Positions 47,920 to 62,525 of a stretch of DNA of 64,000 nucleotides are shown piece by piece. Each line of letters starts with the position of its first letter. The first letter of the stretch is position 1. The notes under the pieces were generated by a model. The model saw only the letters and a program-made list of their open reading frames with translations, made no database searches and was not told where the DNA came from. Source of the DNA: Streptomyces sp. NBC_01775. Lineage in GTDB: Bacteria > Actinomycetota > Actinomycetes > Streptomycetales > Streptomycetaceae. The stretch is from assembly GCF_035917675.1 (NCBI RefSeq), contig NZ_CP109104.1, positions 6,696,001-6,760,000 of the forward strand, read 5' to 3'. Position numbers and translations under genes: made by a program.

Positions 47920-48917
47920 GCCGCGACCTCCTCAAGCTCGTTCTCGTCGTCCTTGTGGGTGGCCTTCTGGCCGGTCAGAGCCAGGAAGACCTCATCCAGG
48001 CTGGGCAGATGGGTGGCGATGTCGGCGATCGCGAAGCCGCGCTCGCCCAACAGCCCCACCACGGCGGTCAGCTGCTCGTCGCTGACGATCGGCACGCTCA
48101 CGACGCCCGCCTTTTCGTCGGCCGTGGCGCCCCCGATCCCGTCGAGGCCCGCCTGGGCGAGGGCGCCGACCATCCGGCTCAGCTCCCCCGGATCGGCGGG
48201 GCGGATCTCCAGCGTGCGACCGCCGACCTTCGCCTTCAGCTCGGGCACCCGGCCCTCGGCGATGATCTTGCCCCGGTCGATGACCGTCAGCTCCTTGGCC
48301 AGCTGCTCGGCCTCCTCCATGTACTGCGTCGTGAGCAGCACGGTGTTGCCGTCCGCCACGATGTTGTGCACCTCGGCCCACACCTCGTTGCGGGTGCGGG
48401 GGTCCAGGCCTGTCGTCGGCTCGTCCAGAAACAGCACCCTGGGGCGGCCGATCATGGAGGCTGCCAGGTCGAGCCTGCGGCGCATTCCGCCGCTGTACTT
48501 GCTGGCCGGCCGCTTGGCGGCCTCGGTCAGGGAGAACCGCTCCAGCAGCTCGTCGGCGCGCTTGCGCGCCTCGGCGCGGGGCAGATCGAGCAGCCGCCCG
48601 ATCATGTAGAGGTTCTCCCTGCCCGAAAGCTTCTCGTCCACCGAGGCGTACTGCCCGGTGAGACCTATGGTGCGCCGCAGCTGGCGGGGCTGGCGCACCA
48701 CGTCGTACCCGGCGACCTTCGCCGAGCCCCCGTCGGGCCGCAGCAGGGTGGAGAGCATCCTGACGAGGGTCGTCTTGCCCGCCCCGTTGGGCCCCAGCAC
48801 ACCCATGACGGTGCCTTCGCGTACATCCAGGTCGATGCCGTCGACGGCCTTCGTCTCCCCGAAGTGCTTTATCAGTCCACGGACCTCGACCGCGTTCGTC
48901 GTCTTCTCTCGCGTCAT
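47916..48917 (-). CDS. ABC efflux ATPase (DrrA-like)
   Basis: 333 residues. Walker A GPNGAGKTT near 42-50; Q-loop TGQYASVDE; signature YSGGMRRRLDLAASMIG; Walker B VLFLDEPTTGLD; switch His replaced by Gln in LLTTQYMEEAEQL as in DrrA proteins. The C-terminal DrrA1-type extension (HLPSLDEVFLALTGQK) is present. Such pairs confer resistance to daunorubicin-type or other hydrophobic compounds. No biosynthetic cluster follows, so the substrate is open; the AfsR-like regulator upstream is on the other strand. Confidence 0.93.
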   Translation of the reverse strand: MTREKTTNAVEVRGLIKHFGETKAVDGIDLDVREGTVMGVLGPNGAGKTTLVRMLSTLLRPDGGSAKVAGYDVVRQPRQLRRTIGLTGQYASVDEKLSGRENLYMIGRLLDLPRAEARKRADELLERFSLTEAAKRPASKYSGGMRRRLDLAASMIGRPRVLFLDEPTTGLDPRTRNEVWAEVHNIVADGNTVLLTTQYMEEAEQLAKELTVIDRGKIIAEGRVPELKAKVGGRTLEIRPADPGELSRMVGALAQAGLDGIGGATADEKAGVVSVPIVSDEQLTAVVGLLGERGFAIADIATHLPSLDEVFLALTGQKATHKDDENELEEVAA

Positions 48918-48970
48918 GAGAACAATGTGTCAGTCCCCACCGACAAAAGACCGACAGCTCACCTACACGC

Positions 48971-49034
48971 AAGAGCCCCCTGGCGGCACCTCCGGGCGAG
49001 AACTGGGGAAAGGGGGGCACCCCCGGGGGCTCTT
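48971..49034 (-). terminator. Hairpin downstream of panB
   Basis: AAGAGCCCCC (48971-48980) pairs with GGGGGCTCTT (49025-49034) across a 44-base interior that can fold further. It lies between the panB stop and the drrA-like start. Confidence 0.55.
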
Positions 49035-49081
49035 ACGGGCGGTCGCTCTACGCCCTCAAGGGGCACTCGGGGCAGGCGCCC

Positions 49082-49954
49082 TCACTGGAAAGAGTGCTCC
49101 TCCTGCGGGAACCCCCCGGAGGCGACGTCCTCGGCGAAGGCGCGCGCGGCGTCGCCGAGGGCACCCCGCAACTCGGCGTACCGCTTCACGAAGCGCGGCA
49201 GCTTTCCCGGGGTGAGCCCGGCCATGTCCGTCCAGACCAGGACCTGCGCGTCGCACTCGGCCCCGGCTCCGATGCCGACGGTCGGCACGTGCAGCGAGCG
49301 GGTGACCTCCGCGGCGGCCGGCGCGGGCACCATTTCCATGACCACGGCGAAGGCTCCCGCGTCCTGCACGGCCTTCGCGTCCCGCAGCAGCTGCGCCGCG
49401 GCCTCCTCGCCGCGCCCCTGTACGCGGTAGCCCATCGCGTGCACGGACTGCGGGGTCAGCCCGATGTGTGCCATGACGGGGATGCCGGAGCGCACCAGAA
49501 GCTGGATCTGGTCGGCGGAGCGCTCGCCGCCCTCCAGCTTCACCGCTCCGGCCCCGGCCTCCTTGACGAGCCGGGTGGCGTTGCGCAGAGCCTGGATCGT
49601 GCCTTCCTGGTACGCGCCGAACGGCAGGTCGGCGACGACCAGGGCGTGGCTGGTGCCCCGTACGACGGCGGCCGTCAGCATGGCGATCTGGTCCATGGTG
49701 ACGGGCACGGTGGTCTCGTACCCGAGGTGGCAGTTGCCCATCGAGTCTCCGACGAGGAGCACGGGGATGCCGGACTCGTCGAAGACGGAGGCGGTCATGG
49801 CGTCGTAGGCGGTGAGCATGGGCCACTTCTCGCCCCGCTCCTTGGCGAGTGCGAGGTCCCGCACGCTCACGCGGCGATTGCGCTTGCCTCCGTACAGGGC
49901 GCTCACGGTGGGCGCCTCGTCCTGTTTCCGGGCAGGCTGCGTCGACTGCTGCAT
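49082..49954 (-). CDS. panB: 3-Methyl-2-oxobutanoate hydroxymethyltransferase
   Basis: First committed step of pantothenate synthesis: transfers hydroxymethyl from 5,10-methylene-THF to alpha-ketoisovalerate to give ketopantoate. 290 residues, TIM barrel with the family blocks KWPMLTAYDAMTASVFDESGIPVLLVGDSMGN, the catalytic and metal aspartates in VGDSM and VVADLPFGAY, HIGLTPQSVHAMGYRVQG, and VPTVGIGAGAECDAQVLVWTDMAGL. ATG 49954 with AGGAG eight bases upstream. Enzymes for beta-alanine and panC are not in the window. Confidence 0.95.
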   Translation of the reverse strand: MQQSTQPARKQDEAPTVSALYGGKRNRRVSVRDLALAKERGEKWPMLTAYDAMTASVFDESGIPVLLVGDSMGNCHLGYETTVPVTMDQIAMLTAAVVRGTSHALVVADLPFGAYQEGTIQALRNATRLVKEAGAGAVKLEGGERSADQIQLLVRSGIPVMAHIGLTPQSVHAMGYRVQGRGEEAAAQLLRDAKAVQDAGAFAVVMEMVPAPAAAEVTRSLHVPTVGIGAGAECDAQVLVWTDMAGLTPGKLPRFVKRYAELRGALGDAARAFAEDVASGGFPQEEHSFQ

Positions 49955-50460
49955 GGGTGTACTCCTGTGTTGTCGTCTCGAAGCGCCCCTACGGCGTCTC
50001 CGGATCCACACATCCATGCTGGCACGCGCGCCCCGTCGCCGGTAGTGCGCTCGGGGGGCCGTCCCGGCCGTCCGCGCTCCGGCACCGGCCGAACCCAAGC
50101 TGTCGGCTCCCGCCGGTCTGATCGCCGGCCCGATGTACCGGTATCGTCCTGCGCGTCTGGGAGGATCTTCCCGAGGGACTGCCCCGGCAGTTTGCCGACG
50201 GCGCCTTGAACGGCGTCTGCGGTCAAGGGCCGAAGGGCAGGTGGGGCGGGGTGCCGCGCGTGCCGCGTCCCGATGTACGTGTTGTGTCACAGGCGGTAAG
50301 GGTGTGGAACCCGCCGCGCTGCCGTACACGTCCCTCAGCTCAGGGCGAAAGCCACAGTTGGACCGAAGGGTTTAACTGCATAAGAACCGGTATCCCCTAA
50401 CGTTCATCGGACACCGGATCAGACAGCAACGGTCACCAGTACAGGCGAGTGAGGACGGCG
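49955..50460. other. Intergenic region between panB and the EEP-family gene
   Basis: About 500 bp with several short open frames rich in Arg and Pro but none with a good ribosome site. It holds two divergent promoters by necessity. A short hairpin (GGGAGGATCTTCCC near 50160) and an AT-richer stretch at 50370-50400 are the only notable features. Confidence 0.5.
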
Positions 50461-51507
50461 ATGGCGCGCGCGCATACGGCGGAGGCCACACACACCGTGG
50501 ACGACGGCGGCAAGCCGGGATTTCTGTCACGGTACGCGGGCCGCACCCGACGCCCGGGCGGCTCCCGCTGGGGCGGCCGGGAGATGTGGCGCCGTGGCTG
50601 GGTGCTCGCCGTCCTCGCCCTCCTGCTCGGGCTGGCTTTCATCCTGCACTCCGAGGTCCCCAACTCCATCGGGAACGTCGGCTCGCTGTGGGAGACGTTC
50701 CTGCCCTGGGGCGGGCTGCTGATCATCGGCCTCCTGGGTCTCGCCCTGCTGCGCCGCGCCCCCGTGGCGCTGCTCGCGCTGCTGCTGCCGGCACTGGTGT
50801 GGGTGAACCTGTTCGGCGGGTCGATCAACGACAAGTCGGGCTCCGGCGGTGACATCACCGTCCTCACCCACAACGTCAACGCGGACAACCCGGACCCCAC
50901 GGGCACCGCGCGCTCCCTCGCGCACTCGGGCGCCGGCATCATCGCGCTGGAGGAGGTCACCGGGCAGCAGGCCGGGACCTACCGCAAGGGGCTGGCCTCC
51001 TCGCACCCGCACCACAAGCTGCTCGGCACGGTCGGGCTGTGGAGCAAGTACCCGATGAAGGACATCCGCCCCGTCGACATCAAGATGGGCTGGCCGCGCG
51101 CCATGCGGGCCACCGTCGAGACCCCCAAGGGCGAGATCGCCGTCTACGCGGCACATCTGCCCTCCGTCCGGGTCCAGTTCAGGGCGGGCTTCACCGCCGG
51201 GCAGCGGGACGGCAGCGCGCAGGCGCTCGGCGATGCCATAGAGAAGGACAAGGCCGACAGGGCGGTCCTGCTCGGCGACCTCAACGGCACCATGAACGAC
51301 CGCGCCCTCGCCCCCATCACCTCCCAGATGCGCTCGGCGCAGGGTGCCGCGGGCAGTGGCTTCGGCTTCAGCTGGCCCGCCTCGTTCCCGATGGCCCGCA
51401 TCGACCAGATCATGGTCAAGGGCGCCACCCCCGTCTCCGCCTGGACCCTGCCCTCCACGGGCAGCGACCACCTGCCGGTCGCCGCGCAGGTGAACCTCAC
51501 GGACTGA
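50461..51507 (+). CDS. Membrane protein with endonuclease/exonuclease/phosphatase domain
   Basis: 348 residues. Three membrane helices lie at about 45-130 (WVLAVLALLLGLAFIL; LLIIGLLGLALL; LLALLLPALVWVNLFGG). The catalytic EEP domain follows: ITVLTHNVNADN (metal Asn), GIIALEEVTGQ (Glu), AVYAAHLPSV (His), LLGDLNGTMND (Asp/Asn) and GSDHLPVAA (catalytic His), placing the active site outside the membrane. Such proteins cleave phosphodiester or phospholipid bonds. ATG 50461 has GAGGACGG upstream; a GTG at 50449 is possible. Regulation unknown. Confidence 0.88.
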   Translation: MARAHTAEATHTVDDGGKPGFLSRYAGRTRRPGGSRWGGREMWRRGWVLAVLALLLGLAFILHSEVPNSIGNVGSLWETFLPWGGLLIIGLLGLALLRRAPVALLALLLPALVWVNLFGGSINDKSGSGGDITVLTHNVNADNPDPTGTARSLAHSGAGIIALEEVTGQQAGTYRKGLASSHPHHKLLGTVGLWSKYPMKDIRPVDIKMGWPRAMRATVETPKGEIAVYAAHLPSVRVQFRAGFTAGQRDGSAQALGDAIEKDKADRAVLLGDLNGTMNDRALAPITSQMRSAQGAAGSGFGFSWPASFPMARIDQIMVKGATPVSAWTLPSTGSDHLPVAAQVNLTD

Positions 51508-51897
51508 GCGCGGCCGACGCGGGTGCGCGCGCGTTGTGAGGGCCCGTACACACCGTGTCGGTGACGCGCCCCGGGCCCCGGCGGGCCTCGACGGACCCCG
51601 GAGAGCCCGCGGGCCTGGGCGGACCCCGGCGGGTCGTGCCGGAGCTCAGCGGATCTCTCCGGGGGTTCGCTGACCGGTAACGCCTCGTTTTGCGCCCTGG
51701 AACATCTGGCTGCGAGACTTTGTTCTACGGCAAAACATACGGGCAGTGTCGCCCTCCACCCCTTCTCAGTCCTCGCAGCCCTGCCCCGCGCTGAGCGCGG
51801 GCGCGCTCGCGCCTGCCGTTCCGCCCGTTCAGTACCGCATTTCGTTTCAGCACCGCACTCCGTCATGCTTCCGCACGCGTCCGAAAGGTCTCTCCGC
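51508..51897. other. Intergenic region upstream of the MFS exporter
   Basis: No gene seen. 51541-51670 is a GC-rich stretch with repeated GGNCCCCGGCGGG units. Further on, GTTTTGC (51687-51693) and GCAAAAC (51730-51736) form a dyad around the expected promoter of the MFS gene and could bind a regulator or form part of an attenuator. Confidence 0.45.
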
Positions 51898-53097
51898 ATG
51901 CCTCTGGCTCTGCTCGCACTCGCCGTGGGCGCCTTCGGTATCGGCACCACTGAGTTCGTGATGATGGGCCTGCTGCCGAACGTCGCCGACGATCTCGGCA
52001 CGTCCGTCCCGACCGCCGGATACCTCGTCTCCGCGTACGCCCTCGGTGTCGTCCTCGGCGCTCCGCTGCTCACCGCGTTCGGCGCCCGCATTCCGCGCAA
52101 GACGATGCTGCTGCTGTTGATGGGCGTCTTCACCGTCGGCAACCTTGCCTCGGCCCTCGCGCCCGGGTTCGGCACACTGCTCGCCGGACGCGTGCTGGCG
52201 GGGCTGCCGCACGGCGCGTTCTTCGGGGTCGGCGCGGTGGTCGCCGCCCGGCTCGTACGGGAGGGCCGCTCGGCCCGCGCTGTGGCGACGATGTTCCTGG
52301 GGCTGACCGTCGCCAACATCGTCGGTGTCCCCGGCGGCACCGCGCTGGGCCAGCAGCTCGGCTGGCGCGCCACCTTCGTGGTCGTCTCCCTCATCGGCCT
52401 GGTCGCCATGACCGCGCTCGCCCTGCTGGTGCCCCGCCTCCCGCTGGAGCACCAGGGCGGCGTCCGTCACGAGCTGCGCGCCCTGGGCAACCGCCAGGTG
52501 GTCCTCGGGCTGCTGACCGCCGTCTTCGGCTTCGGCGGTGTCTTCGCCGTCTACAGCTACCTCGCGTCGATGATGACGGAGGTCACCGGACTCGCCGAGA
52601 CCTCCGTGACCTGGGTTCTCGCCCTCTTCGGTATCGGCATGACGCTGGGCACGCTGGTCGCGGGCCCGCTGACCGACCGCGCCCCGCGGCGGACGCTGTA
52701 CGCGGCGCTGGGCGGGATGGCCGTGCTCATGGTCGTCTTCCACTTCGCCGCACCCGTGAAGTGGGCGGCGCTGGTGCTGGTGGGGCTGCTGGGAGCCGTC
52801 GGCTTCCTGATCACCACACCGGTCCAGATGCTGGTGATGCGCGCGGCCTCCAAGGCGCCGACGCTCGCCTCGGCTTCCAACCACTCCGCGTTCAACCTCG
52901 CCAACGCGGGCGGCGCGTGGCTCGGCGGCGTCGTGATCGCCGCCGGCTGGGGCTGGATGTCCCCCACGCTGGTCGGCGCGGTGCTGGCCCTGGCGGGCCT
53001 GGGCATCGCGGTGACCGCCGGTGCCATGGCCCGGGGGGAGTCCCGGGTGGTGGCCCGAGGCGCCGAAGCCCCCGCAGAGGTCCACTCGGGCGCCTGA
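51898..53097 (+). CDS. MFS drug-type exporter (DHA1)
   Basis: 399 residues, about twelve helices. LALAVGAFGIGTTEFVMMGLLPNVADDLGTSVPTAGYLVSAYALGVVLGAP matches the AraJ/CmlR-type branch, and GRVLAGLPHGAFFGVGAVVAARLV the central MFS motif. ATG at 51898 with GAAAGG nine bases before it; a start at 51865 is open but leads through a poor signal. Likely exports a small-molecule drug or arabinose-like sugar. No regulator next to it. Confidence 0.88.
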   Translation: MPLALLALAVGAFGIGTTEFVMMGLLPNVADDLGTSVPTAGYLVSAYALGVVLGAPLLTAFGARIPRKTMLLLLMGVFTVGNLASALAPGFGTLLAGRVLAGLPHGAFFGVGAVVAARLVREGRSARAVATMFLGLTVANIVGVPGGTALGQQLGWRATFVVVSLIGLVAMTALALLVPRLPLEHQGGVRHELRALGNRQVVLGLLTAVFGFGGVFAVYSYLASMMTEVTGLAETSVTWVLALFGIGMTLGTLVAGPLTDRAPRRTLYAALGGMAVLMVVFHFAAPVKWAALVLVGLLGAVGFLITTPVQMLVMRAASKAPTLASASNHSAFNLANAGGAWLGGVVIAAGWGWMSPTLVGAVLALAGLGIAVTAGAMARGESRVVARGAEAPAEVHSGA

Positions 53098-53123
53098 CCC
53101 GACCGGGTCCCGCCCCTCGTGCG

Positions 53124-53163
53124 GCGCCCCGCCCCGGCCGCGACAGCGGTCAGGGCGGGGCGC
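53124..53163 (+). terminator. Hairpin after the MFS exporter
   Basis: GCGCCCCGCCC (53124-53134) pairs with GGGCGGGGCGC (53153-53163) around an 18-base loop, 27 bases after the stop. Confidence 0.6.
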
Positions 53164-53223
53164 TCGCGTATGTGGCTGGTGCCCCTCCCGGCAAGCTTTT
53201 CCCCGTCGCGCCGCCCGGCACGG

Positions 53224-53259
53224 CCTCCCCCAAGCTCTCCGAGCAGGGGGTGCCCCCAG
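53224..53259. repeat. Palindromic repeat, family B copy
   Basis: CCTCCCCCAAGCTCTCCGAG then CAGGGGGTGCCCCCAG; member of the family described at 23491. Confidence 0.55.
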
Positions 53260-53307
53260 CGGCGTTGGCCAAAAGCCCTGGTGGCTCCTTCCCCAAGCTC
53301 TCAGCTT

Positions 53308-53340
53308 CTCCCCCGGCCCTTCGGTCGGGAGGTGCCCCCA
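53308..53340. repeat. Palindromic repeat, family B copy
   Basis: CTCCCCCGGCCCTTCGGTCGG then GAGGTGCCCCCA; closest in sequence to the copy at 29711-29740. Confidence 0.55.
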
Positions 53341-53435
53341 GAGCAGGGGAGACGCCGATCAAGGGCTTCCGGCCGCCTTGCGATCGCACGTACCGGACGA
53401 CGCTCCTTGACGGGCAAACATTGCCGGTCACGGCA

Positions 53436-53987
53436 CTAGCCGGCCGCTCCGGCCGGGACCGGTGCCGGAAGGGGGAGCTTCCTGGGGTTGATGTTGCTCG
53501 TGGTCACGGTCCCCGCCGCATCGACGAGGCCGAACACCGGATAGCCCTCCACCTGGAACGCCGCCCGGGTGGGGCCCTCGTCCGGGTCCTCCACCACCAC
53601 GTGGGTCACCTCCCGCAGGGGCTCGGCCATCGCACGCGCCTCGGCCGCGTCCCCGTGGACGAAGGTGACGACCGTCCTGCCGAGCGCCCGGTGCTGCTCG
53701 GCGATCTTCAGGTAATGGGGGAGCTGCTCCTTGCAGGCCGGGCAGGTGGTGGAGAGGAACGCGATCAGCCCGTTGTGCAGGGTCTCGCCGGTGACCGTCT
53801 CGCCGTCGAGGCTCTCCGCCGTGAAGTCCGGCAGCGTGGAGCCGTTCGGCAGCATGAGCCCCGGGTCGTCTCCGGTGAGCGGGTCAGCGCGCATGGTCCG
53901 GAGCTTGCGGACGACGCCGAAGGTGAGCAGCAGGTTCAGCAGGCACAGCGCCGCCAGAATCACGACGGCGGCGATCAGAAACGGCAT
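53436..53987 (-). CDS. Membrane-anchored thioredoxin-like protein (CPAC motif)
   Basis: 183 residues. One N-terminal membrane helix (LIAAVVILAALCLLNLLLTFGVV, 4-26) anchors a redoxin domain outside the membrane: GSTLPDFTAESLDGETVTGETL, then FLSTTCPACKEQLPHYL with the active CPAC pair, and GYPVFGLVDAAGTVT with the cis-Pro before the strand. This is the MauD/TlpA type. ATG 53987 has AGGAG five bases upstream, and the ORF begins 104 bp inside the preceding MauE-like frame. Probable electron donor or oxidant for disulfides in the Cys-rich peptide encoded at 54734, working with the MauE-like protein. Confidence 0.85.
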   Translation of the reverse strand: MPFLIAAVVILAALCLLNLLLTFGVVRKLRTMRADPLTGDDPGLMLPNGSTLPDFTAESLDGETVTGETLHNGLIAFLSTTCPACKEQLPHYLKIAEQHRALGRTVVTFVHGDAAEARAMAEPLREVTHVVVEDPDEGPTRAAFQVEGYPVFGLVDAAGTVTTSNINPRKLPLPAPVPAGAAG

Positions 53988-54570
53988 CGGGGCTCCTGGT
54001 GGCTCTGGGGGTTGCGGGGGCTCTGGTGGCGGATGGCGCGGGGTCCGCGAACAGCGCTGCGAGCTCGTCGGTGCCGACGACCAGCAACACGCCGATCAGC
54101 GCCGCGAAGGCGGCGAGCGCGAGCCCGCCCGGGTGCGTGGGCAGCGCGGGCCCGGCCACGGAGAGGCCCGCGCCCAGCGCCGCCACGGCCAGCAGCGCCC
54201 CGTTGCGTACCAGGTGGCGCGGGCCGATCGGGGCCGACGACGAGCCGAAGCAGGCGCACGCGGTCGCGACGTTCCGCCGCAGTGCCCGCACGAGTGCCGC
54301 GCTGAGTACGGCGAGCAGACCGGCCGCGAGGATGAAACCGGACAGACCGCCGGGCGGTGCGAGGAGCCCGAGGGGCACCAGCACCTCGGCGGCGACCACG
54401 GCCAGCGCCGCCGGACGGGGGGAGCCGGCGGGTGCGCCCAGCTCTCTGGCCGCCCGCTCGAACTCCCGGAAGGCGGCCCGCGACCGCAGCTTGCTCACGG
54501 CGGAGACCGCGAACACGCCGCCGGTCAACAGGCGGCAGGCCAGCAGGACATAGCCCACGGCATCCCCCAT
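53884..54570 (-). CDS. MauE/DoxX-type membrane redox protein
   Basis: 228 residues; four membrane helices in the first 150 with the family sequence VGYVLLACRLLTGGVFAVSAVSKLRSRAAFREFERAARELG and a conserved CACFGSSS, whose Cys pair can pass electrons across the membrane as in MauE and DsbD-like proteins. A poorly conserved, Arg/Pro-rich tail overlaps the first 104 bp of the next gene in another frame; the tail may be an extension beyond the functional end. MauE acts with MauD in forming the six disulfides of methylamine dehydrogenase, so by analogy this pair may oxidise the Cys-rich peptide. ATG 54570, ribosome site weak. Confidence 0.8.
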   Translation of the reverse strand: MGDAVGYVLLACRLLTGGVFAVSAVSKLRSRAAFREFERAARELGAPAGSPRPAALAVVAAEVLVPLGLLAPPGGLSGFILAAGLLAVLSAALVRALRRNVATACACFGSSSAPIGPRHLVRNGALLAVAALGAGLSVAGPALPTHPGGLALAAFAALIGVLLVVGTDELAALFADPAPSATRAPATPRATRSPDAVSDRRRRDSGGAVPAEPAAHLRRRPQAPDHAR

Positions 54571-54620
54571 GTGTGTTCGATGTCGATCGGCAATCTAACC
54601 CCACGAGGGCACTTCAGGGA

Positions 54621-54637
54621 ACAAGAAAAAATCTTGT
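54621..54637. promoter_or_regulatory. Inverted repeat in the divergent promoter of the peptide locus
   Basis: ACAAGA (54621-54626) and TCTTGT (54632-54637) are perfect arms around AAAAA, in the only AT-rich stretch nearby, between the MauE-like gene and the peptide gene. A probable regulator-binding site; no regulator gene is in the locus. Confidence 0.5.
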
Positions 54638-54695
54638 AACTTTCAACCTCAATTCCCCCTAGCGCAACAGAGATCGATCGTCGTAACGTTCCGCT

Positions 54696-54712
54696 GCCTT
54701 GAGATCCAAGGC
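54696..54712 (+). promoter_or_regulatory. Leader hairpin before the peptide gene
   Basis: GCCTTG (54696-54701) pairs with CAAGGC (54707-54712) around AGATC, just upstream of the AAGGGGAA ribosome site. It could stabilise the mRNA or hide the ribosome site. Confidence 0.4.
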
Positions 54713-54733
54713 GACAGGGAAAGGGGAACTCCC

Positions 54734-54898
54734 ATGATCGCTAAGCTCAGCGACAAGCTGCTCGGCATGGTGCTGCGCGAGGAGCGTGCGGGCGCTTGCG
54801 TGCCGGAACACGGCAACTACTGCGGCTGCAAGAGCGGGTACAAGTACGCTCTCGACTGCAACGGCCACTGCACGGACAAGACCATCAACCGCTGCTGA
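54734..54898 (+). CDS. Cysteine-rich peptide precursor
   Basis: 54 residues. AAGGGGAA lies upstream of the ATG. Residues 1-21 read MIAKLSDKLLGMVLREERAG and A, a short amphipathic leader with a small hydrophobic LLGMVL. The tail from residue 22 is CVPEHGNYCGCKSGYKYALD then CNGHCTDKTINRC, with six Cys (22, 30, 32, 42, 46, 54), the last at the C-terminus. AGA before Cys 22 fits a type I signal peptidase -3/-1 rule. Few Ser/Thr and no lanthionine, YcaO or radical-SAM genes nearby, so disulfides are the likely modification. Flanked by redox, ABC and S26 genes. I know no family with this sequence. Confidence 0.85.
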   Translation: MIAKLSDKLLGMVLREERAGACVPEHGNYCGCKSGYKYALDCNGHCTDKTINRC

Positions 54899-54925
54899 CG
54901 CTCCGTCAGTCCAGTTGATCTGAAC

Positions 54926-54968
54926 GGCTCTCGGGCGCACCGCGGCGCCCGAGAGCCCGTTCCTTTCC
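54926..54968 (+). terminator. Strong hairpin between the peptide and ABC genes
   Basis: GGCTCTCGGGCGC (54926-54938) pairs perfectly with GCGCCCGAGAGCC (54945-54957) around ACCGCG; CGTTCCTTTCC follows. It lies 28 bases after the peptide stop and 55 before the ABC start, a layout seen in peptide loci where the precursor must be expressed more strongly than the transporter (partial termination). Confidence 0.85.
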
Positions 54969-55022
54969 CCCCGCGCGCTCCCCGCGAGCGGGTCTCACGA
55001 GCGTGCGAGGAAGACCACAGCC

Positions 55023-56981
55023 GTGTCGAAGGTGCCCGAGCAGCCACCACCCGAGCCGGAACAGCCGCCACCCGAGCATGAGCAGCCACCGCCCGAGCCC
55101 GAGCTGCCCGAAGCGTCGTCAGGGCTGCCCGGGACGTCGTCCGGCGCGCCCCCGCGCTCCCGGCTGCGGCTCCGTGCCGCCCTCACCTGCCTGGCGCTCC
55201 AGTTCCAGGCCACCCGGGTGGGCGCCGCCGCGATGTTCGGGACGGCCGCGGTCACCGGGCTGCTGCCCGCGCTCGCCGCCTGGTTCGGGAAGCTCCTCTT
55301 CGACGAGATCGGCCACGGCGGCGACGCCGACACAGGCCGGGCCACCGCTCTCGCGCTCGCCGTCGCCGGGGTCGGCGCGGTCACCGCCGTACTGACGCAA
55401 CTGGCCGGATACCTCGACGAGGTGGTCCGGCAGCGCCTCGTCGTCACCGTCGAGGACCGGCTCTTCGCCCGCGTCAACGAGTTCCGCGGGCTGCGGCACT
55501 TCGAGAGTCCCGCGTTCCACGACCGGCTGCGACTCGCGCAGGAGGCGTCGCAGGACGCGCCGCACAACATCACCATGTTCAGCCAGAGCGCGGTCCGGGC
55601 CGTCGCCACCGTGACCGGCTTCACCGGTGTGCTCTTCGCCGTCTGGCCGCCCATGGTCGGACTGCTCTTCCTGGTCGGGGGCGCCGCGTTCGTCGCCCGG
55701 CTGCACCAGGCCCGCCGCCAGGCGGAGGTCTCGGAGATCGTCTCCGGCAAGTACCGGCGCCGGCTCTTCTACCGCGGCCTGCTCACCGACCCGCGCGCCG
55801 CCAAGGAGATCCGGCTGTTCGGGCTCGGCGGCTTCCTGCACACCCGCCTGGTCACCGCCCTCGGCGACGCGACCTCCGCCGAACTCCGCGTCGCCCGCCG
55901 AGGCGTGCTCGTCCAGTCCGGCTTCGCGCTGCTCAACACCGCCGTGACGGGACTCGGGACCGTGGTCGTCGCGATCGGCGCCGCGCACGGGCGGTTCACC
56001 GTCGGCGACGTCACCCTCTTCATCGCCGCGGCTGCCGGGATCCAGGCGACCTTCGGCGGGATCGTGACGCAGGCCGGTATGGCGGTCGAGGGCATTCGCC
56101 TCTTCGGCCACTACACCGACCTGATGGAGACCCCGGACGACCTCGGCTCCGGGAGCGACCTCGGCTCCGGGGGCGAGCCCGTCCCCGCGCTGCGCCACAC
56201 CATCGAGCTGCGCGACGTGTGGTTCCGCTACGACCCCTCCGGCCCCTGGGTGCTGCGCGGGGTGAACCTGACCCTGACAGCCGGTACGGCGGTCGGCCTG
56301 GTGGGGCGGAACGGAGCGGGCAAGAGCACGCTCGTCAAGCTGCTGTGCCGGTTCTACGACCCCGTGCGCGGGACGATCCTGTGGGACGGCGCGGACATCC
56401 GCACCCTGGACGTCGCGAGGCTGCGCCGCCGCATCGGCGTGACCTTCCAGGACTACATGGCGTACGACCTCACGGCGCAGGAGAACATCGGCGTCGGTGA
56501 CCTCGACCGCCTCCACGACCGGGACGCCGTACGGACCGTGGCGCGCGCGGCGGGCATCGACGAGAAGCTGAGCTCCCTTCCCGACGGGTACGGCACGCTG
56601 CTGAGCCGGGTGCAGGTGGACGACTACGACGCGTCGCCCGGCGTCACCCTCTCCGGCGGCCAGTGGCAGCGGGTCGCGCTGGCCCGCTCGCTGCTGCGCA
56701 CGGACGCCGACCTGCTGATCCTCGACGAGCCAAGTTCGGCCCTCGACGCCCAGGCGGAGCACGAGATCAACGCGGCCCTGCGCCGGCACCGGGAGGGCAG
56801 GACGAGCCTGCTGATCTCGCACCGGCTCAGCGCCCTGCGGGACGCGGACGTGATCGTCGTCATGACGGACGGAGCGGTCGCCGAGGCGGGCACACACGAC
56901 GAGCTGATGGGCGCCGAAGGCCAGTACGCGTCGTTGTTCACCCTCCAGGCGGCGGGCTACCAGGACACCCGGGTGGGGTGA
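55023..56981 (+). CDS. ABC half-transporter (permease-ATPase fusion), peptide exporter candidate
   Basis: 652 residues. Residues 1-45 are a Pro/Glu-rich tail with three near-copies of EQPPPEPE. Six membrane helices follow to about 360, then the ATPase: Walker A GRNGAGKST near 430, Q-loop VTFQDYM, signature LSGGQWQR, Walker B LLILDEPSSALD and SHRLSA. No C39 peptidase domain is attached, so leader cleavage is probably done by the S26 protein coded next. GTG start 55023 with GAGGAAG nine bases upstream. Nine bases before the S26 gene; both probably read through from the peptide promoter. Confidence 0.9.
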   Translation: MSKVPEQPPPEPEQPPPEHEQPPPEPELPEASSGLPGTSSGAPPRSRLRLRAALTCLALQFQATRVGAAAMFGTAAVTGLLPALAAWFGKLLFDEIGHGGDADTGRATALALAVAGVGAVTAVLTQLAGYLDEVVRQRLVVTVEDRLFARVNEFRGLRHFESPAFHDRLRLAQEASQDAPHNITMFSQSAVRAVATVTGFTGVLFAVWPPMVGLLFLVGGAAFVARLHQARRQAEVSEIVSGKYRRRLFYRGLLTDPRAAKEIRLFGLGGFLHTRLVTALGDATSAELRVARRGVLVQSGFALLNTAVTGLGTVVVAIGAAHGRFTVGDVTLFIAAAAGIQATFGGIVTQAGMAVEGIRLFGHYTDLMETPDDLGSGSDLGSGGEPVPALRHTIELRDVWFRYDPSGPWVLRGVNLTLTAGTAVGLVGRNGAGKSTLVKLLCRFYDPVRGTILWDGADIRTLDVARLRRRIGVTFQDYMAYDLTAQENIGVGDLDRLHDRDAVRTVARAAGIDEKLSSLPDGYGTLLSRVQVDDYDASPGVTLSGGQWQRVALARSLLRTDADLLILDEPSSALDAQAEHEINAALRRHREGRTSLLISHRLSALRDADVIVVMTDGAVAEAGTHDELMGAEGQYASLFTLQAAGYQDTRVG

Positions 56982-56990
56982 GGAGACGGG

Positions 56991-57470
56991 ATGCGCAGTT
57001 CCACGACGGCGCTCGCCTCAGCGCTGCTTCTGACGGCGACGGCGACGGCCGGAGCGCTGCTTCGCCGCAAGCTGCTGCTGATCCGCGTCACCGGCTCCAG
57101 CATGGCCCCGACCTTCGCCGACGGCTCCCGGCTGCTGCTGAGGAAGACGGCCCGCCTGCGCACCGGTGACGTGATCGTCTTCCGCAATCCGAACGGGACG
57201 GGCGGCGCCGAGGACCTGCGCTGGCTGGTCAAGCGGGTGACAGCGCTGCCGGGCGACCCCGTGCCCGCCGAGGTCCGCGACCGGGTCGCGGCACGCCCCG
57301 GCGACCGGGTGCCCGCCGGCAGCGTCGTCGTCCGGGGCGATGCCGAACGCACCGTGGACTCACGGCACTTCGGCTACGTCCCGGCTGCCGGGGTCCTCGG
57401 CGTGGTGCTCAGCCCTCGCGCCACGCGTCAGCCCGCGTCGTACGTCAGCCCTCGCGCCACACGTTCGTGA
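56991..57470 (+). CDS. Small S26-family (type I) signal peptidase
   Basis: 159 residues with an N-terminal membrane helix. The Ser nucleophile lies in VTGSSMAPTFADGSRLLL and the general-base Lys in WLVKRVTALPGD, the classic Ser/Lys pair of S26A; RGDAERTVDSRHFGYV is the usual later motif. Much shorter than the housekeeping enzymes and with a single helix, so it looks specialised. Ribosome site GAGGAGACGGG. It lies directly behind the ABC gene, in a locus with a peptide gene, so it should trim the exported peptide. The last 26 bases overlap the convergent nadE gene; the C-terminal SPRATR pair may derive from this overlap. Confidence 0.88.
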   Translation: MRSSTTALASALLLTATATAGALLRRKLLLIRVTGSSMAPTFADGSRLLLRKTARLRTGDVIVFRNPNGTGGAEDLRWLVKRVTALPGDPVPAEVRDRVAARPGDRVPAGSVVVRGDAERTVDSRHFGYVPAAGVLGVVLSPRATRQPASYVSPRATRS

Positions 57471-59196
57471 TCGGCAGGCGGCGGTCCTTGCCGAAGCCCT
57501 TCGGGGAGATCTTCGTGCCCGGCGGGTACTGGCGGCGCTTGTACTCGGCGCGGTCGGTCATCCGCAGGATCCGGTGCACCGTCTCCGCCTCGAAGCCGGC
57601 CTCGATGATCTCGGCGGCGCCCTGGTCGCCGTCCACATAGAGCTTCAGGACGCGGTCCAGCACGTCGTAGTCGGGCAGCGAGTCCGTGTCCACCTGACCC
57701 GGGCGCAGCTCCGCGCTGGGGGGCTTGGTGATGGACGCCTCCGGGATCGGCGGGGTGTGGCCCCGCTCCTCGGCAGCGCGGTTGCGCCACCTGGCGAGGC
57801 GGAAGATGTTCGTCTTGTAGACGTCCTTGATCGGGCCGTACGCGCCCACCGAGTCGCCGTAGAGGGTGGAGTACCCCACAGCCAGCTCCGACTTGTTGCC
57901 CGGGGCCAGCACGATGTGGCCCTCCTGGTTGGACACCGACATCAGCAGCGTGCCGCGCAGCCGCGACTGGAGGTTCTCCTCGGCCACGCCCGTGAGCCCC
58001 AGCGCGTCCATGTACGCGGCGAACATCGGCTCGATCGCGACCGTGCGGAGGTTGAGGCCGGTGCGCTCGGCCAGCTCGGCGGCGTCGCCCTTGGAGTGGT
58101 CCGAGGAGTAGCGCGAGGGCATCGAGATGCCGTACACGTTCTGCGCGCCCACCGCGTCGCAGGCGATGGCGGCCGTCAGCGCCGAGTCGATCCCGCCGGA
58201 CAGGCCGATCAGTACCGAGCGGAAGCCGTTCTTGGCGGCGTAGGCGCGCAGGCCCACCACCAGCGCGGTGTAGATCTCCTCGTCGTTCTCCAGGCGCGGT
58301 GCCTCGCTGCCGGTGACCTCCGGCTCGTAGGCGGGCAGCGGCTCGGCGGAGACGACGAAGTGGTCGATGCGCAGCCCGTCGTCCACCACGCCCGAGGGCG
58401 GGGCCGCGGGTGCCTCGGGCAGCTCCAGGTCGAGGACGACGCACCCCTGCTCGAACTGCGGCGCGCGGGCCACGACCCGGCCGTCCGCGTCGACGACGAT
58501 CGAGTCGCCGTCGAAGACCAGCTCGTCCTGGCCGCCGATCATCGCGAGATACGCGGTGGTGCAGCCCGCCTCCTGCGCCCGCTTGCGCACCAGCTCCAGG
58601 CGGGTGTCGTGCTTGTCCCGCTCGTAGGGCGAAGCGTTGATCGACAGCAGCAGCCCCGCGCCCGCGCTGCGCGCCGCCGGCACCCGGCCGCCGTCCTGCC
58701 ACAGGTCCTCGCAGATGGCCAGTGCCACATCGACGCCGCGCACCCGCACGACGGGCATGCTGTCGCCGGGGACGAAGTAGCGGAACTCGTCGAACACGCC
58801 GTAGTTGGGCAGGTGGTGCTTGGCGAAGGTCAGCACGACCTCGCCGCCGTGCAGCACCGCAGCCGCGTTCTGCGGGGCGCCCGCCGGCTGGCCGTAGCGG
58901 GGCTGGGCCTGCTCGCAGCGGTCGAGATAGCCGACGACGACGGGTACGTCGCCGAAGCCCTCCTCGGCCAGCCGCCCGGCCAGCTCCCGCAGCGCCGCCC
59001 GGCTCGCCTTGACGAACGAGCGGCGCAGCGCCAGATCCTCGACCGGATAGCCGGTCAGCATCATTTCCGGGAACGCGACCAGGTGCGCGCCTTGCTCCAC
59101 GGAGTGCCGGGTCCACTGGAGCACCGAGGCGGCGTTGCCTTCCAGGTCGCCGACGGTGGAGTCGATCTGATTCAGGGCGAGACGTAGTTGAGCCAC
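57445..59196 (-). CDS. nadE: Glutamine-dependent NAD+ synthetase
   Basis: Last step of NAD synthesis: amidation of nicotinic acid adenine dinucleotide with ATP and glutamine. 583 residues: N-terminal nitrilase-like glutaminase (AFPEMMLTGYPVEDLALR, FAKHHLPNYGVFDEFRYF with the Lys, VALAICEDLW with the Cys of the catalytic triad) and C-terminal synthetase with the P-loop SGGIDSALTAAIACDAVG. GTG 59196, giving a family-like start AQLRLALNQID. Housekeeping; its 3' end overlaps the S26 gene. Confidence 0.95.
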   Translation of the reverse strand: MAQLRLALNQIDSTVGDLEGNAASVLQWTRHSVEQGAHLVAFPEMMLTGYPVEDLALRRSFVKASRAALRELAGRLAEEGFGDVPVVVGYLDRCEQAQPRYGQPAGAPQNAAAVLHGGEVVLTFAKHHLPNYGVFDEFRYFVPGDSMPVVRVRGVDVALAICEDLWQDGGRVPAARSAGAGLLLSINASPYERDKHDTRLELVRKRAQEAGCTTAYLAMIGGQDELVFDGDSIVVDADGRVVARAPQFEQGCVVLDLELPEAPAAPPSGVVDDGLRIDHFVVSAEPLPAYEPEVTGSEAPRLENDEEIYTALVVGLRAYAAKNGFRSVLIGLSGGIDSALTAAIACDAVGAQNVYGISMPSRYSSDHSKGDAAELAERTGLNLRTVAIEPMFAAYMDALGLTGVAEENLQSRLRGTLLMSVSNQEGHIVLAPGNKSELAVGYSTLYGDSVGAYGPIKDVYKTNIFRLARWRNRAAEERGHTPPIPEASITKPPSAELRPGQVDTDSLPDYDVLDRVLKLYVDGDQGAAEIIEAGFEAETVHRILRMTDRAEYKRRQYPPGTKISPKGFGKDRRLPITNVWREG

Positions 59197-59405
59197 ACCG
59201 CCCGAGTGTAATCGTCGCCCTGACGTTATGAGAGGCGCCGGGCCCTCCACCGGTATCTCCGTACGCCGTACGGCTCCGCTGGTGGCCAGCTCAGGGGCAC
59301 CTTGTCGGGTAGTGGGGGATTACGGAGGGTTCCTTGATATTTGGCCTGGCGCTGGCGGCGATCGGTCATTGACGCGAACTCGCCACCGTGCACAGGATGC
59401 CCAGC

Positions 59406-60458
59406 ATGTTGGATGCCCTGGATCTTGACCCTGTCCAGCAGCAGATCTACGAGGCGCTGGTCGACGGCGCCGTCACCGTCACCGAGCTGCGCTCCGCCGT
59501 GGATCTGAGCGCCGCGCGGGTCCGTGCGGCGCTCTCCTCCCTGGAGAACCTCAGCCTCGTCGGCCGGTTCGCCGCCGACCGGGGCGGCGAGGAGCGCTAC
59601 CTGCCGGTGGCGCCGGAAATCGCCTTCGAATCGCTCCTCCTCGCCCGCGAGGAGGAGATCCACCGCACGCGCCGCCACATCCAGCTGCTGGCCGCCCGGT
59701 TCCGGGTGAACGCGGTGGGCCGCGACCCCCTCGACCTGGTGGAGATCGTCACGGGGCGCGCCGCGGTCATCCGCCAGGTCGACCAGCTCCAACGCAGCGC
59801 ACGGCAGGAGATACGGGGCATCGACCGGCCCCCGTATGCCAACAGCGACCCGGACCGGCTGGATCCCAAGACCGGCATGATGCCGGTGCAGGCGCAGATG
59901 ATGCAGCGCGGGGTCGGCTACCGCGTCATCTACGACACCGACGGGCTGGCCACCTTCCACCGGCTCGACACCGACATCGGGGCCGCCGCCGAACTGGGTG
60001 AGGACGCCCGGGTCATGGTGGACACCCCGACGAAGATGCTGATCGCGGACGACCGCATCGCTTTGATACCCCTGCGTGCGGCGCCGAACGAGCTGGCCAG
60101 TAGCGTCGTCGTCCACCCCTCCGGGCTGCTGGAGGTGCTGTGCGAGTTCTTCGAGGTGCTGTGGAGCCGGGCGCTGCCGATCTCCGAGTATCTGTCGGGC
60201 CACCGCGACGGCGCCCCGGACGGGCCAGGGCCCGACGAGGCCAAGCTGCTGGCGCTGCTGACGACGGGCATGACCGACCAGGTGATGGCCCGTCAGCTCG
60301 GCATCAGCTACCGCACGTTCCAGCGGCGGCTGCACGGGCTGATGGAGCGCCTGGGGGCGACCACGCGCTTCCAGTTGGGGATGCGCGCCGCGAGCCTCGG
60401 CTGGGTCACCCCAACTCCCCACTCCCGCACGCCCGAAGGGTCGCCCGAACCGCCGTGA
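59406..60458 (+). CDS. TrmB-like regulator with LuxR-type C-terminal HTH
   Basis: 350 residues. N-terminal winged helix DPVQQQIYEALVDGAVTVTELRSAVDLSAARVRAALSSLENLSLVGR is TrmB-like, and the C-terminus has a LuxR-type helix-turn-helix (MTDQVMARQLGISYRTFQRRLHGLMERLGATTRFQLG). Between them lies a sensor region with PVQAQMMQRGVGYRVIYDTD and VVVHPSGLLEVLCEFFEVLW. ATG 59406 has AGGA eight bases upstream; ATG 59397 is an alternative. The subtilisin gene follows on the same strand after 131 bp and may be its target. A similar regulator before secreted peptidases is frequent in Streptomyces (recall). Confidence 0.85.
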   Translation: MLDALDLDPVQQQIYEALVDGAVTVTELRSAVDLSAARVRAALSSLENLSLVGRFAADRGGEERYLPVAPEIAFESLLLAREEEIHRTRRHIQLLAARFRVNAVGRDPLDLVEIVTGRAAVIRQVDQLQRSARQEIRGIDRPPYANSDPDRLDPKTGMMPVQAQMMQRGVGYRVIYDTDGLATFHRLDTDIGAAAELGEDARVMVDTPTKMLIADDRIALIPLRAAPNELASSVVVHPSGLLEVLCEFFEVLWSRALPISEYLSGHRDGAPDGPGPDEAKLLALLTTGMTDQVMARQLGISYRTFQRRLHGLMERLGATTRFQLGMRAASLGWVTPTPHSRTPEGSPEPP

Positions 60459-60508
60459 ATGTTGCCTGATAGGCCGAATGCCCCGTCTGTGCCCGGCACT
60501 TGGATCTC

Positions 60509-60538
60509 TTGTCTCGGCCGCGTCAATGCGCGTAGCGT
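60509..60538 (+). promoter_or_regulatory. Promoter candidate for the subtilisin gene
   Basis: TTGTCT (60509-60514) and TAGCGT (60533-60538) are spaced by 18 bp, about 50 bases before the start codon. Confidence 0.5.
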
Positions 60539-60589
60539 TTCGAATGCGCACCCCACAGGCGCACCCCCCACACGAGGAGAACCCTCCCC

Positions 60590-61795
60590 ATGGCAGTTAC
60601 GCGCAAGAAGGTCGCTCTCGGCATATCGGCGGCAGTGGCCGCCGCGGCCATCGGCTCGGTATCGGCGCTTCCCGCGACAGCGGCGCCCCCCGAGGCCAAG
60701 GTCGTCGGAGCCGACTCGGCGAAGGCCGTCAAGGGCAGCTACATCGTCACGATGAAGAAGTCCGCCCTGAGCACCAAGTCGGACTCGGCGAAGGGCAAGT
60801 CCGTCATCGCCGAGCACGGCGGCAAGGTGAAGCGGACCTTCACCGCGGCGCTCAACGGATACTCGGCGAAGATGTCCGAGGACGAGGCCAAGAAGCTGGC
60901 CGCCGACCCGGCGGTCGACAAGGTCTTCGCGAACCAGAAGCACAAGGCCACCGGCGAGCAGGCCGACCCCCCCTCCTGGGGCCTGGACCGCATCGACACC
61001 CCCGAGCTGAAGCTCGACAAGAAGTACACCTACCCCGACAGCGCGGGTGAGGGTGTCAACGCCTACATCATCGACACCGGCGTCCGCACCACGCACAAGG
61101 ACTTCGGCGACCGCGCCAAGAGCGGCTTCGACGCGGTCGACGGTGACGACGACGCCACGGACGGCAACGGCCACGGCACCCACGTCGCCAGCACCGTGGC
61201 GGGCGAGGCGCACGGCGTGGCCAAGAAGGCCAACATCGTCGCCGTCCGCGTCCTGGACGACCAGGGCTCGGGCACCACCGAGGGTGTCGTCGCGGGCATC
61301 GACTGGGTCACCAAGAACGCCAAGGCGCCCTCGGTGGCCAACATGTCCCTCGGCGGCGGAGCGGATGAGGCGCTGGACACTGCCGTCCAGAACTCCATCA
61401 AGGCCGGAGTCTCCTTCGCGGTGGCGGCCGGCAACGAGTCCTCGGACGCCGGGGAGAGCTCACCCGCGCGGGTTCCCGAGGCCATCACCGTCGGCGCGAC
61501 GGACAACAAGGACGCGCAGGCGGAGTTCTCCAACTACGGCAAGGTCGTCGACCTCTACGCCCCTGGCGTGGACATCACCGGCGCGTGGAACACCGGCGAC
61601 GACGCCACCGACACCATCTCCGGCACCTCGATGGCCTCCCCGCACGTCGCGGGCGCCGCCGCGGTCTACCTGGCGGGGCACAAGGACGCCAAGCCGGACG
61701 CGGTCTCCAAGGCCCTGACCGACGGCGCCTCCAAGGACGTCGTCGGCAGCCCCGGCGAGGGTTCCCCGAACCTGCTGCTGAACGTCGTCAAGTAA
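60590..61795 (+). CDS. Secreted S8 subtilisin-type serine protease
   Basis: 401 residues: signal peptide (VTRKKVALGISAAVAAAAIGSVSALPATA, cleavage near 32), an I9 propeptide (about 47-118, SYIVTMKKSAL ... EHGGKVKRTFTAALNGYSAKMSEDEAKKL), and the catalytic domain. The triad is Asp in NAYIIDTGVRTTHKDF, His in GNGHGTHVASTVAG and Ser in ISGTSMASPHVAGAA; the oxyanion Asn is in AAGNESS. No C-terminal extension. ATG 60590 follows GAGGAGAACC. Extracellular nutrient protease, probably regulated by the upstream TrmB/LuxR-type gene. Confidence 0.95.
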   Translation: MAVTRKKVALGISAAVAAAAIGSVSALPATAAPPEAKVVGADSAKAVKGSYIVTMKKSALSTKSDSAKGKSVIAEHGGKVKRTFTAALNGYSAKMSEDEAKKLAADPAVDKVFANQKHKATGEQADPPSWGLDRIDTPELKLDKKYTYPDSAGEGVNAYIIDTGVRTTHKDFGDRAKSGFDAVDGDDDATDGNGHGTHVASTVAGEAHGVAKKANIVAVRVLDDQGSGTTEGVVAGIDWVTKNAKAPSVANMSLGGGADEALDTAVQNSIKAGVSFAVAAGNESSDAGESSPARVPEAITVGATDNKDAQAEFSNYGKVVDLYAPGVDITGAWNTGDDATDTISGTSMASPHVAGAAAVYLAGHKDAKPDAVSKALTDGASKDVVGSPGEGSPNLLLNVVK

Positions 61796-61827
61796 GCACG
61801 ATCGACTGAGTTGATCCGCTGACCCAG

Positions 61828-61860
61828 CCGCGGCCCGGTGCCCCACACACCGGGCCGCGG
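61828..61860 (+). terminator. Terminator hairpin of the subtilisin gene
   Basis: CCGCGGCCCGGTG (61828-61840) pairs perfectly with CACCGGGCCGCGG (61848-61860) around CCCCACA, about 33 bases after the stop. Confidence 0.8.
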
Positions 61861-61934
61861 TTGCGTTGTGAGCTCGCGTTCGCGTCAGTCCGTGTCTTCA
61901 GCCCGCGCATTCAGCGCGGATCCAGCCCGCGTGT

Positions 61935-62525
61935 TCAGCCCTCGCTTCGGGGGCCGGTGTCGCCGCCCGCCTCCAGCCGGCGGATCGAGCGCTCCAACTC
62001 GGCGACGCGGGCGGAGAGTTCGGGGCTGTCTGAGGTGTCGCGGTCGCGCAGCATCGTCTCGATCCGGAGGAGCTGCTCGGTGATGTGGGCGAGCTGCTCG
62101 GTGCCGGGCTGGGCGGCGAGCTGACGCTTCTTGCGGTCCAGATCGAGGAAGACGTTGACCTTCGTGCGCAGCACCCAGGGGTCGATGGGCTTGGCGAGGA
62201 AGTCGGCGGCCCCCAGGGCGTAGCCGCGGTAGGCGTAGTCCGGGTCCAGGTCGGTGCCGGTCAGCAGGATGATGGGGACATCCTTGGTCTGGTCGAGACG
62301 CTTGATGTTGCCCGCCGTCTCGAACCCGTCCATTCCGGGCATCAGGACATCGAGCAGTACGAGCGCGAAGTCCTGACGGAGCATCGCCTTCAGGGCCTCC
62401 TCGCCCGAGCGCGCGGTCACCAGATGCTGGTCCAGAGGCCCCAGCACGGCTTGCAGGGCGACGAGGTTCTCCTGCATGTCGTCGACGATCAGAATGCTCG
62501 ACCTGTCCGACGCCGGCGCGGTCAT
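61935..62525 (-). CDS. Single-domain response regulator with C-terminal coiled coil
   Basis: 196 residues. Receiver domain 8-125: acid pocket D15/D16, phosphoryl Asp 59 in LLDVLMPGMDG, Thr 89 (LLTGTDLD) and Lys 112 (FLAKPID) all present. No DNA-binding output; the rest is a helical stretch (AQPGTEQLAHITEQLLRIETML ... SPELSARVAELERSIRRLEAGG) that can form a coiled coil. ATG 62525 overlaps the stop of the kinase gene (ATGA). It should receive phosphate from the kinase and act by protein contact. Confidence 0.92.
   Translation of the reverse strand: MTAPASDRSSILIVDDMQENLVALQAVLGPLDQHLVTARSGEEALKAMLRQDFALVLLDVLMPGMDGFETAGNIKRLDQTKDVPIILLTGTDLDPDYAYRGYALGAADFLAKPIDPWVLRTKVNVFLDLDRKKRQLAAQPGTEQLAHITEQLLRIETMLRDRDTSDSPELSARVAELERSIRRLEAGGDTGPRSEG

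Follow-up and report, generated by a model that had tools for sequence, protein, structure and literature searches.

The window analysed here, a 64,000-nucleotide stretch of Streptomyces sp. NBC_01775 DNA, contains five neighbouring genes that encode a 54-residue precursor peptide with six Cys, a MauE/DoxX-type membrane protein, a TlpA/MauD-like thioredoxin-fold protein, an ATP-binding cassette (ABC) half-exporter and a short S26 signal-peptidase-like protease. Judging from sequence comparisons, it is very likely that this locus exports a peptide, oxidises it outside the cell to form three disulfides and trims it with the S26 protease. We favour this reading because the peptide gene is linked to its four partners, its leader is conserved, Cys numbers are even, the partners carry catalytic motifs, and exporter and precursor covary. 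Rather than the stand-alone new system that an earlier sequence-only reading had proposed, the window set is one branch of a larger family that spans many actinomycete genera, with about 150 predicted peptides sharing a leader and a four-gene machine. To our knowledge, only a small number of bacterial peptides have disulfides as their sole cross-links, and little work has addressed how actinomycetes fold them.

The precursor peptide is a conserved gene

The five open reading frames (ORFs) are present where the sequence-only reading had placed them, and all six Cys of the peptide lie within its last 33 residues with the spacing C-x7-C-x-C-x9-C-x3-C-x7-C. With Cys22 as the mature N-terminus and three disulfides, the predicted monoisotopic mass of the core is 3645.48, compared to 3651.52 for the reduced form. 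ABC and MauE scans recovered six loci with a window-like layout (L002 to L006 and L052); L159 covers the L052 locus in a longer stretch, and L146 and L228, the latter a 5.7 Mb Embleya record filed as a plasmid, joined the set later. We aligned ten precursors (window, L002, L003 with two, L004, L005, L006, L052 with two, and P0002). Seventeen columns are invariant, all six Cys among them, and the AGAC junction is kept. Over all pairs of nine precursor DNA sequences, differences at codon positions 1, 2 and 3 were 0.324, 0.255 and 0.431. Given the invariant columns and this codon-position pattern, the 54-residue gene is more than a chance frame.

Window-type precursor genes occur as tandem pairs in L003, L004, L159 and L228, and the type is rare, being found in 2 of 392 Streptomyces genomes, source included. 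At L146 (5999-6160), in a genome of another family, the core CVPEHGQCCKKGYRFNCLGSCVNQSSTCK retains the window motif with Cys 2 and 3 adjacent, and is possibly an intermediate between subtypes. Sequence profiles compared with solved structures gave no convincing relative; the best E values, 0.18 and 2, were taken as chance. We rejected a lipoprotein reading of the precursor, since Leu at -3 is absent; the lipoprotein peptidase, moreover, is not an S26 enzyme.

The peptide is linked to a four-gene machine

Relatives were collected from three starting points. The ABC-first set came from a scan of genome contigs with the ABC protein, which gave 49 loci, of which 29 were kept; the other 20 (L031-L050), at 27-36% identity, had no MauE, TlpA or S26 by tblastn. 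For the MauE-first set, 392 Streptomyces genomes were scanned at a threshold of 1e-10, giving 72 matches in 58 of the genomes: the window itself, 68 matches that make up the set, one present only in the peptide-first set (G218) and two second places that were not fetched (G137 and G166). The peptide-first set was built with a profile, A3, of 46 hand-picked precursors from a source list restricted to low-Arg ORFs that had four or more Cys and were preceded by a Shine-Dalgarno-like stretch. No parity filter was used and one row with seven Cys was kept. The profile favours Cys-rich ORFs though not even Cys numbers; 18 of its 46 rows come from MauE-first loci. In a class sample of 394 genomes, A3 had 57 matches, spread over 24 genomes (9 of 137 genera, source included); in a phylum sample of 296 it matched the source genome alone. 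The 56 matches outside the window define 48 regions, 41 of which have precursors less than 80% identical to every A3 row and form the independent set (seven dropped). Some loci were reached twice (L135 and L213, for example), and per-stretch counts are accordingly not all independent.

Using rebuilt models for MauE, TlpA, ABC and S26, we found all four partners in 42 of 48 peptide-first, 62 of 68 MauE-first and 22 of 29 ABC-first regions. Of the 41 independent regions, 35 contain the complete set of partners within 5 kb and 38 contain MauE, where roughly 0.2 MauE genes would be expected by chance in the same amount of DNA (a rough figure, from 29 Pfam MauE matches in about 83 Mb of nine system-bearing genomes). 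Incomplete independent regions include L120 and L148, without ABC, L139, without S26, and L154, without MauE, whose stretch starts at a contig end. This supports the sequence-only reading, in which the peptide forms one set with the exporter, the S26 protease and the redox pair; homologues without these partners, which would have refuted that reading if widespread, are the exception among the independent peptide-first regions.

Linkage also holds in the other direction, with a leader-type precursor in 61 of 68 MauE-first Streptomyces regions. This suggests that most Streptomyces genes related to the window MauE serve such peptide loci, and thereby a function for most members of this group in a family named after methylamine utilisation; with a precursor in 61 of the 68 regions, a methylamine label would mislead for these genes. 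The Pfam MauE family is wider, with 29 places in nine genomes compared to 13 for the window MauE query.

A shared leader precedes very different cores

Other MauE/TlpA/ABC/S26 loci have a small ORF nearby with a similar leader and a very different Cys-rich core. The leader pattern across the family is M..xLGDRLLxxLVPxxxAxA. We modelled the leader with a 24-column hidden Markov model (HMM) to which the core is not visible; at 10 bits or more it found 156 ORFs in real loci and one in Markov-shuffled loci, and at 8 bits or more, with identical sequences merged, it gave the 149 distinct precursors used below. AxA stands at the leader end in 143 of the 149, which is in part built into the model. 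A maximal 12-residue hydropathy above 1.6 was seen in 4 of 144 leaders but in every TlpA N-terminus examined, and in 98% of leaders the hydrophobic moment is above that of their own shuffles. The leaders are not Sec-like, and their amphipathic character would fit recognition by the ABC exporter, with S26 cutting at AxA outside; AxA cutting is the specificity of type I signal peptidases. Leaders are better conserved than cores: leader and core identities were 0.77 and 0.63, 0.42 and 0.33, and 0.39 and 0.32 in three bins of ABC divergence.

Cysteine numbers are almost always even

Core Cys counts among the 149 precursors are six in 82, eight in 40, ten in 18 and four in six, with one precursor each at seven, two and one; the number is even in 147. 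With cores clustered by average linkage at 50% identity, which replaced a loose single linkage (22 clusters, one of 123), 71 of 73 clusters are all even (p 3e-19), and so are 50 of 50 precursors of the 41 independent regions. One of the two odd precursors (L008, 4343-4498, one Cys) is probably no gene, as is the precursor with two Cys (L176, 10318-10458). We read the even parity as disulfide pairing.

Partner motifs and exporter covariation

Partner motifs are retained almost throughout: CxxC in 141 of 141 TlpA stretches (with variants including CEPC in 19 and CGPC in 19), CxC in 135 of 136 MauE stretches, SxMxP in 136 of 138 S26 stretches and Walker A in 138 of 139 ABC stretches. Across 122 loci, ABC distances correlate with precursor distances (Mantel r 0.46 for the core and 0.52 for the leader), and 0 of 999 permutations gave values as high. 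A quick tree built from 125 ABC rows places the nine window-type loci (window, L002-L006, L159, L228 and L146) together on a single branch (SH-aLRT 100), and L008, labelled window-type by a loose pattern, falls elsewhere.

Proposed pathway, and what weighs against it

In the pathway we propose, the dedicated ABC half-exporter would recognise the charged, amphipathic leader and translocate the precursor in its reduced form. Pairs of Cys would then be oxidised outside the cell by the TlpA-like CPAC protein, which is anchored in the membrane, and MauE may re-oxidise the TlpA-like protein, by analogy with DsbB, which re-oxidises DsbA. The small S26 protease would then cut after AGA, releasing a free peptide that starts with Cys. 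We consider a secreted specialised metabolite the most likely product; an antimicrobial role in competition is plausible for it, but is the weakest step. We also tentatively put forward, at a little below an even chance, a broader proposal: that these loci make an undescribed actinomycete class of disulfide-only peptide natural products, in which one export, oxidation and trimming module and a common leader are reused for dozens of dissimilar cystine frameworks with 4-10 Cys, mainly in competition between bacteria, and which might offer a general chassis for the secretion of disulfide-rich peptides.

Several observations weigh against the proposed pathway. Two independent regions depart strongly from it: in L144 the sole partner is S26, and L158 lacks all four. 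MauE is locally absent in L003, L004, L005, L011, L024, L027, L029 and L228, and L011 also lacks TlpA; the set that the sequence-only reading called complete has all five genes in the window, but MauE is missing locally from four of the nine window-type loci (L003, L004, L005 and L228). MauE matches do occur elsewhere in all seven genomes searched (all of the above except that of L228, which was not searched). Seven such places from the genomes of L003, L004 and L005 were fetched: three hold further full MauE/TlpA/ABC/S26 sets, L235 and L236 with one leader-type precursor each and L232 with none found; L234 and L238 have MauE alone, near the ends of short contigs, and L233 and L237 have no model match. 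Where the local copy is absent, MauE is possibly supplied in trans, which is a guess. In addition, L214 is a plausible precursor with seven Cys, and the Mantel r drops to 0.18 for the core and 0.32 for the leader without ABC pairs above 70% identity. No recurrent immunity gene family was recognised in a crude search in which genes below 80 residues were not called, and the window stretch 48001-62000 has no SARP or AraC members of the recurrent regulator families.

The want of a recognised immunity gene would suit an exported peptide that is a signalling or developmental factor, or a surface-active one, rather than a weapon, made by the same machinery. So would the near-neutral core (charge +1, pI 7.8; median core charge over the set +1) and the SARP or AraC regulators in 75 of 146 stretches, a raw count without a control rate. 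However, divergent cores, multiple precursors (at least two precursor-like ORFs in 18 of 145 regions, where at least the L008 and L176 counts include a probable non-gene and the L021 pair is separated by 6 kb) and a patchy distribution (the MauE is in 58 of 392 Streptomyces genomes) are more weapon-like, and no receptor candidate was recognised; we regard this alternative as rather unlikely.

It seems improbable that the peptide is instead a secreted, metallothionein-like metal binder whose thiols TlpA and MauE keep reduced. Cys-rich cores are what such a peptide would have, and the CEPC and CGPC variants of TlpA are motifs common in reductants, yet parity is even almost without exception, which disulfides would predict and metal thiolates do not demand, and Cys spacing differs widely between subtypes. 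Least credible, to the point of being negligible, is that the 54-residue ORF is no gene and that its four neighbours act on another substrate. Pfam and NCBIfam models match neither the 54-residue protein nor, above cut-off, ten diverse precursors, and a single-sequence search of about 5.8 billion proteins returned nothing besides the peptide itself (8 contigs) and a single protein of Streptomyces albiaxialis, as might be expected of a spurious frame. This is contradicted by the frame, six Cys and leader kept in independent loci and by the codon-position pattern, as well as by the same position in the gene set in several genera and by a Streptomyces clavuligerus record that annotates the cognate small genes. 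The export, oxidation and trimming of a disulfide-bonded peptide remains our preferred reading.

Neighbourhood and plasmid loci

The A3 protein search at E <= 1 gave 29 proteins, the named ones all 'hypothetical'. Neighbouring gene families were gathered with a crude gene caller that took no ORF shorter than 80 residues, and of 22 families listed, five proteins were named with Pfam. SARP/BTAD-type regulators lie in 56 of the 146 stretches (L182 2876-5182 and L138 4818-5630 are examples beside loci) and AraC-type regulators in 20. Non-partner families in at least ten stretches include four regulators and an ABC ATP-binding cluster, the latter in 15 stretches (L022 12629-13498, for example); an FtsX-type permease occurs in seven (L135 3165-5978, for example). 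The ABC ATP-binding and FtsX families could provide efflux or immunity in some loci.

No relative of the ABC protein was found in a phage collection at 1e-60. On plasmids, 29 records carry ABC relatives, and no MauE relative was found at 1e-8. A plasmid locus of S. clavuligerus nevertheless has an annotated MauE, which is presumably too divergent for this threshold. This locus, on pSCL4 of S. clavuligerus F613-1 (NZ_CP016560.1; L229 5144-9369), has a tandem precursor pair, MauE, a gene in the place of TlpA, ABC and S26 in a row. Its annotation names the MauE, the ABC transporter and the S26 peptidase, and leaves the two small proteins and the protein in the TlpA place as hypothetical; both small proteins (BB341_RS28005 and BB341_RS33815) have the family leader and six core Cys. 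Because S. clavuligerus is cultured and well studied, the product, its fold and activity, and the MauE-TlpA electron path are directly testable there.

Features of the window locus

Coordinates of the locus features are collected in Table 1. The frames of MauE, which runs to 53884, and TlpA, which starts at 53987, have 104 bases in common, and no sigma-70-like consensus was found in the divergent intergenic region. The ABC protein has a proline-rich N-terminal stretch whose start is uncertain. Its ABC_membrane match is under the Pfam cut-off, and exporter-type NCBIfam models, among the 25 matches listed, are all below theirs. Pfam finds no N-terminal C39 peptidase on it, in agreement with the sequence-only reading. 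The S26 protein is over the cut-off of NCBIfam sigpep_I_bact. Also as first read, Pfam gave no class-defining enzymes of lanthipeptides, sactipeptides, lasso peptides or YcaO products in the five ORFs and two flanking genes, which are the part of the window scanned for them; the same genes include no mau structural gene. Rfam gave nothing at gathering score in 53000-58000, and in PADLOC the ABC protein alone has matches (mad3, mad8, AriA, ATPase-Toprim).

Table 1. Features of the peptide locus, in window coordinates.
Feature	Position	Strand	Evidence
TlpA/MauD-like membrane-anchored thioredoxin-fold protein, motif CPAC	53436..53987	-	Pfam AhpC-TSA/Redoxin
MauE/DoxX-type membrane protein, CxC (CACFG)	53884..54570	-	Pfam MauE, 80.9 bits
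Divergent intergenic region between MauE and peptide gene	54571..54733	.	
Precursor gene, 54 aa plus stop	54734..54898	+	
Leader, 21 aa, MIAKLSDKLLGMVLREERAGA, amphipathic, not Sec-like, AxA end	54734..54796	+	Leader HMM, hydropathy, moment
Core peptide, 33 aa, six Cys	54797..54895	+	Alignment, mass calculation
G+C-rich hairpin, 13 pairs, in precursor/ABC gap	54926..54957	+	Fold z -4.24
ABC half-exporter (TMD-NBD), no C39 domain	55023..56981	+	Pfam ABC_tran, 106.6 bits
Short S26 signal-peptidase-like protease, N-terminal membrane segment, SxMxP and KRV motifs	56991..57470	+	Pfam Peptidase_S26, 69.3 bits

The hairpin between precursor and ABC gene was equalled in stability by 1 of 200 shuffles. 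It is also the only site in a consensus terminator scan, for which shuffles average 1.1, so that it is unusual in stability only; it is possibly an attenuator or terminator. The 80 bases 3' of the 149 precursors have a median fold of -40.5 kcal/mol compared to -31.7 kcal/mol for a control of random, not intergenic, positions.

Around the locus, two copies of CCCCAAGCTCTC lie in 53228-53302, an intergenic stretch past an MFS gene; with up to one mismatch 0.54 copies are expected and 8 of 100 shuffles have two, so that the pair may be either a small repeat element or a chance occurrence. An S8 subtilase with an I9 propeptide (60590-61795), some 3 kb downstream of the gene set, is conceivable as an alternative, unlinked processing protease. 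The regulator at 59388-60458 has weak TrmB and LuxR-type (GerE) matches below cut-off.

Comparison with known systems

The closest precedent we found is decRiPPter (Kloosterman et al. 2020, PMC7794033), which, in the portions available to us, reports three candidate Streptomyces families that contain mauE homologues and, in one case, mauD as well. In those portions each mauE-family precursor has at least eight Cys, a role in precursor modification is suggested and no product is given; the main text uses none of the terms 'signal peptidase', 'thioredoxin' and 'redox'. Like these families, going by the same portions, the window has a MauE homologue clustered with a small Cys-rich precursor. Unlike them, its core has six Cys, although 58 of our 149 precursors have eight or ten. 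Beyond what those portions describe, the present family has the six-Cys type, a shared leader with AxA, regular S26 and TlpA genes, and members in several genera. The two were compared by description.

Among open-licence PMC papers, MauE and RiPP (ribosomally synthesised and post-translationally modified peptide) co-occur as whole words in PMC7794033 alone, and among the matches listed for other wordings nothing was recognised as this arrangement. As far as these searches go, the family has been glimpsed by genome mining and not described as one system. The novelty suggested by the sequence-only reading would, within these searches, hold for the system as a whole but not for the pairing of mauE with Cys-rich precursors, which the available portions of PMC7794033 already contain.

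Glycocin and sublancin gene sets, as far as the accessible descriptions go, likewise include a dedicated oxidoreductase for a secreted Cys peptide. These sets have a BdbB-type partner, a glycosyltransferase and a C39-type exporter, none of which Pfam finds among the five genes of the window locus. A leader more conserved than the core is a feature of RiPPs in the broad sense that the present family has, and its linked redox genes are candidates for modifying the core, although some authors do not count a peptide as a RiPP for its disulfides alone. The window ABC protein also differs from the C39 ABC transporters of double-glycine peptides, as it has no C39 domain.

With actifensin and laterosporulin, as covered by the available part of PMC6989792, the window shares six Cys, three disulfides (predicted in the window), a leader, ABC genes and, in some operons, multiple precursors. 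The actifensin locus is described there as afnB-L, including a subtilisin-like protease, with GA plus E before the core. The class IId defensin-like pattern given in that part is C-X5-12-C-X3-C-X9-10-C-X4-5-C-X-C, and compared by eye, the window core spacing falls outside it.

Among S26 proteins, the Ni-SOD maturation protease family TIGR02754 has the short S26 fold in common with the window protein, which scores 38.2 bits, below the cut-off of 63.25, and has exporter and redox-pair genes as its neighbours. Finally, disulfide formation has been speculated for MauE in methylamine dehydrogenase maturation, according to the portions of PMC7794033 available. As far as those portions go, MauD/MauE maturation likewise pairs a MauE-family membrane protein with a partner, whereas the substrate in the window would be a small, leader-bearing peptide.

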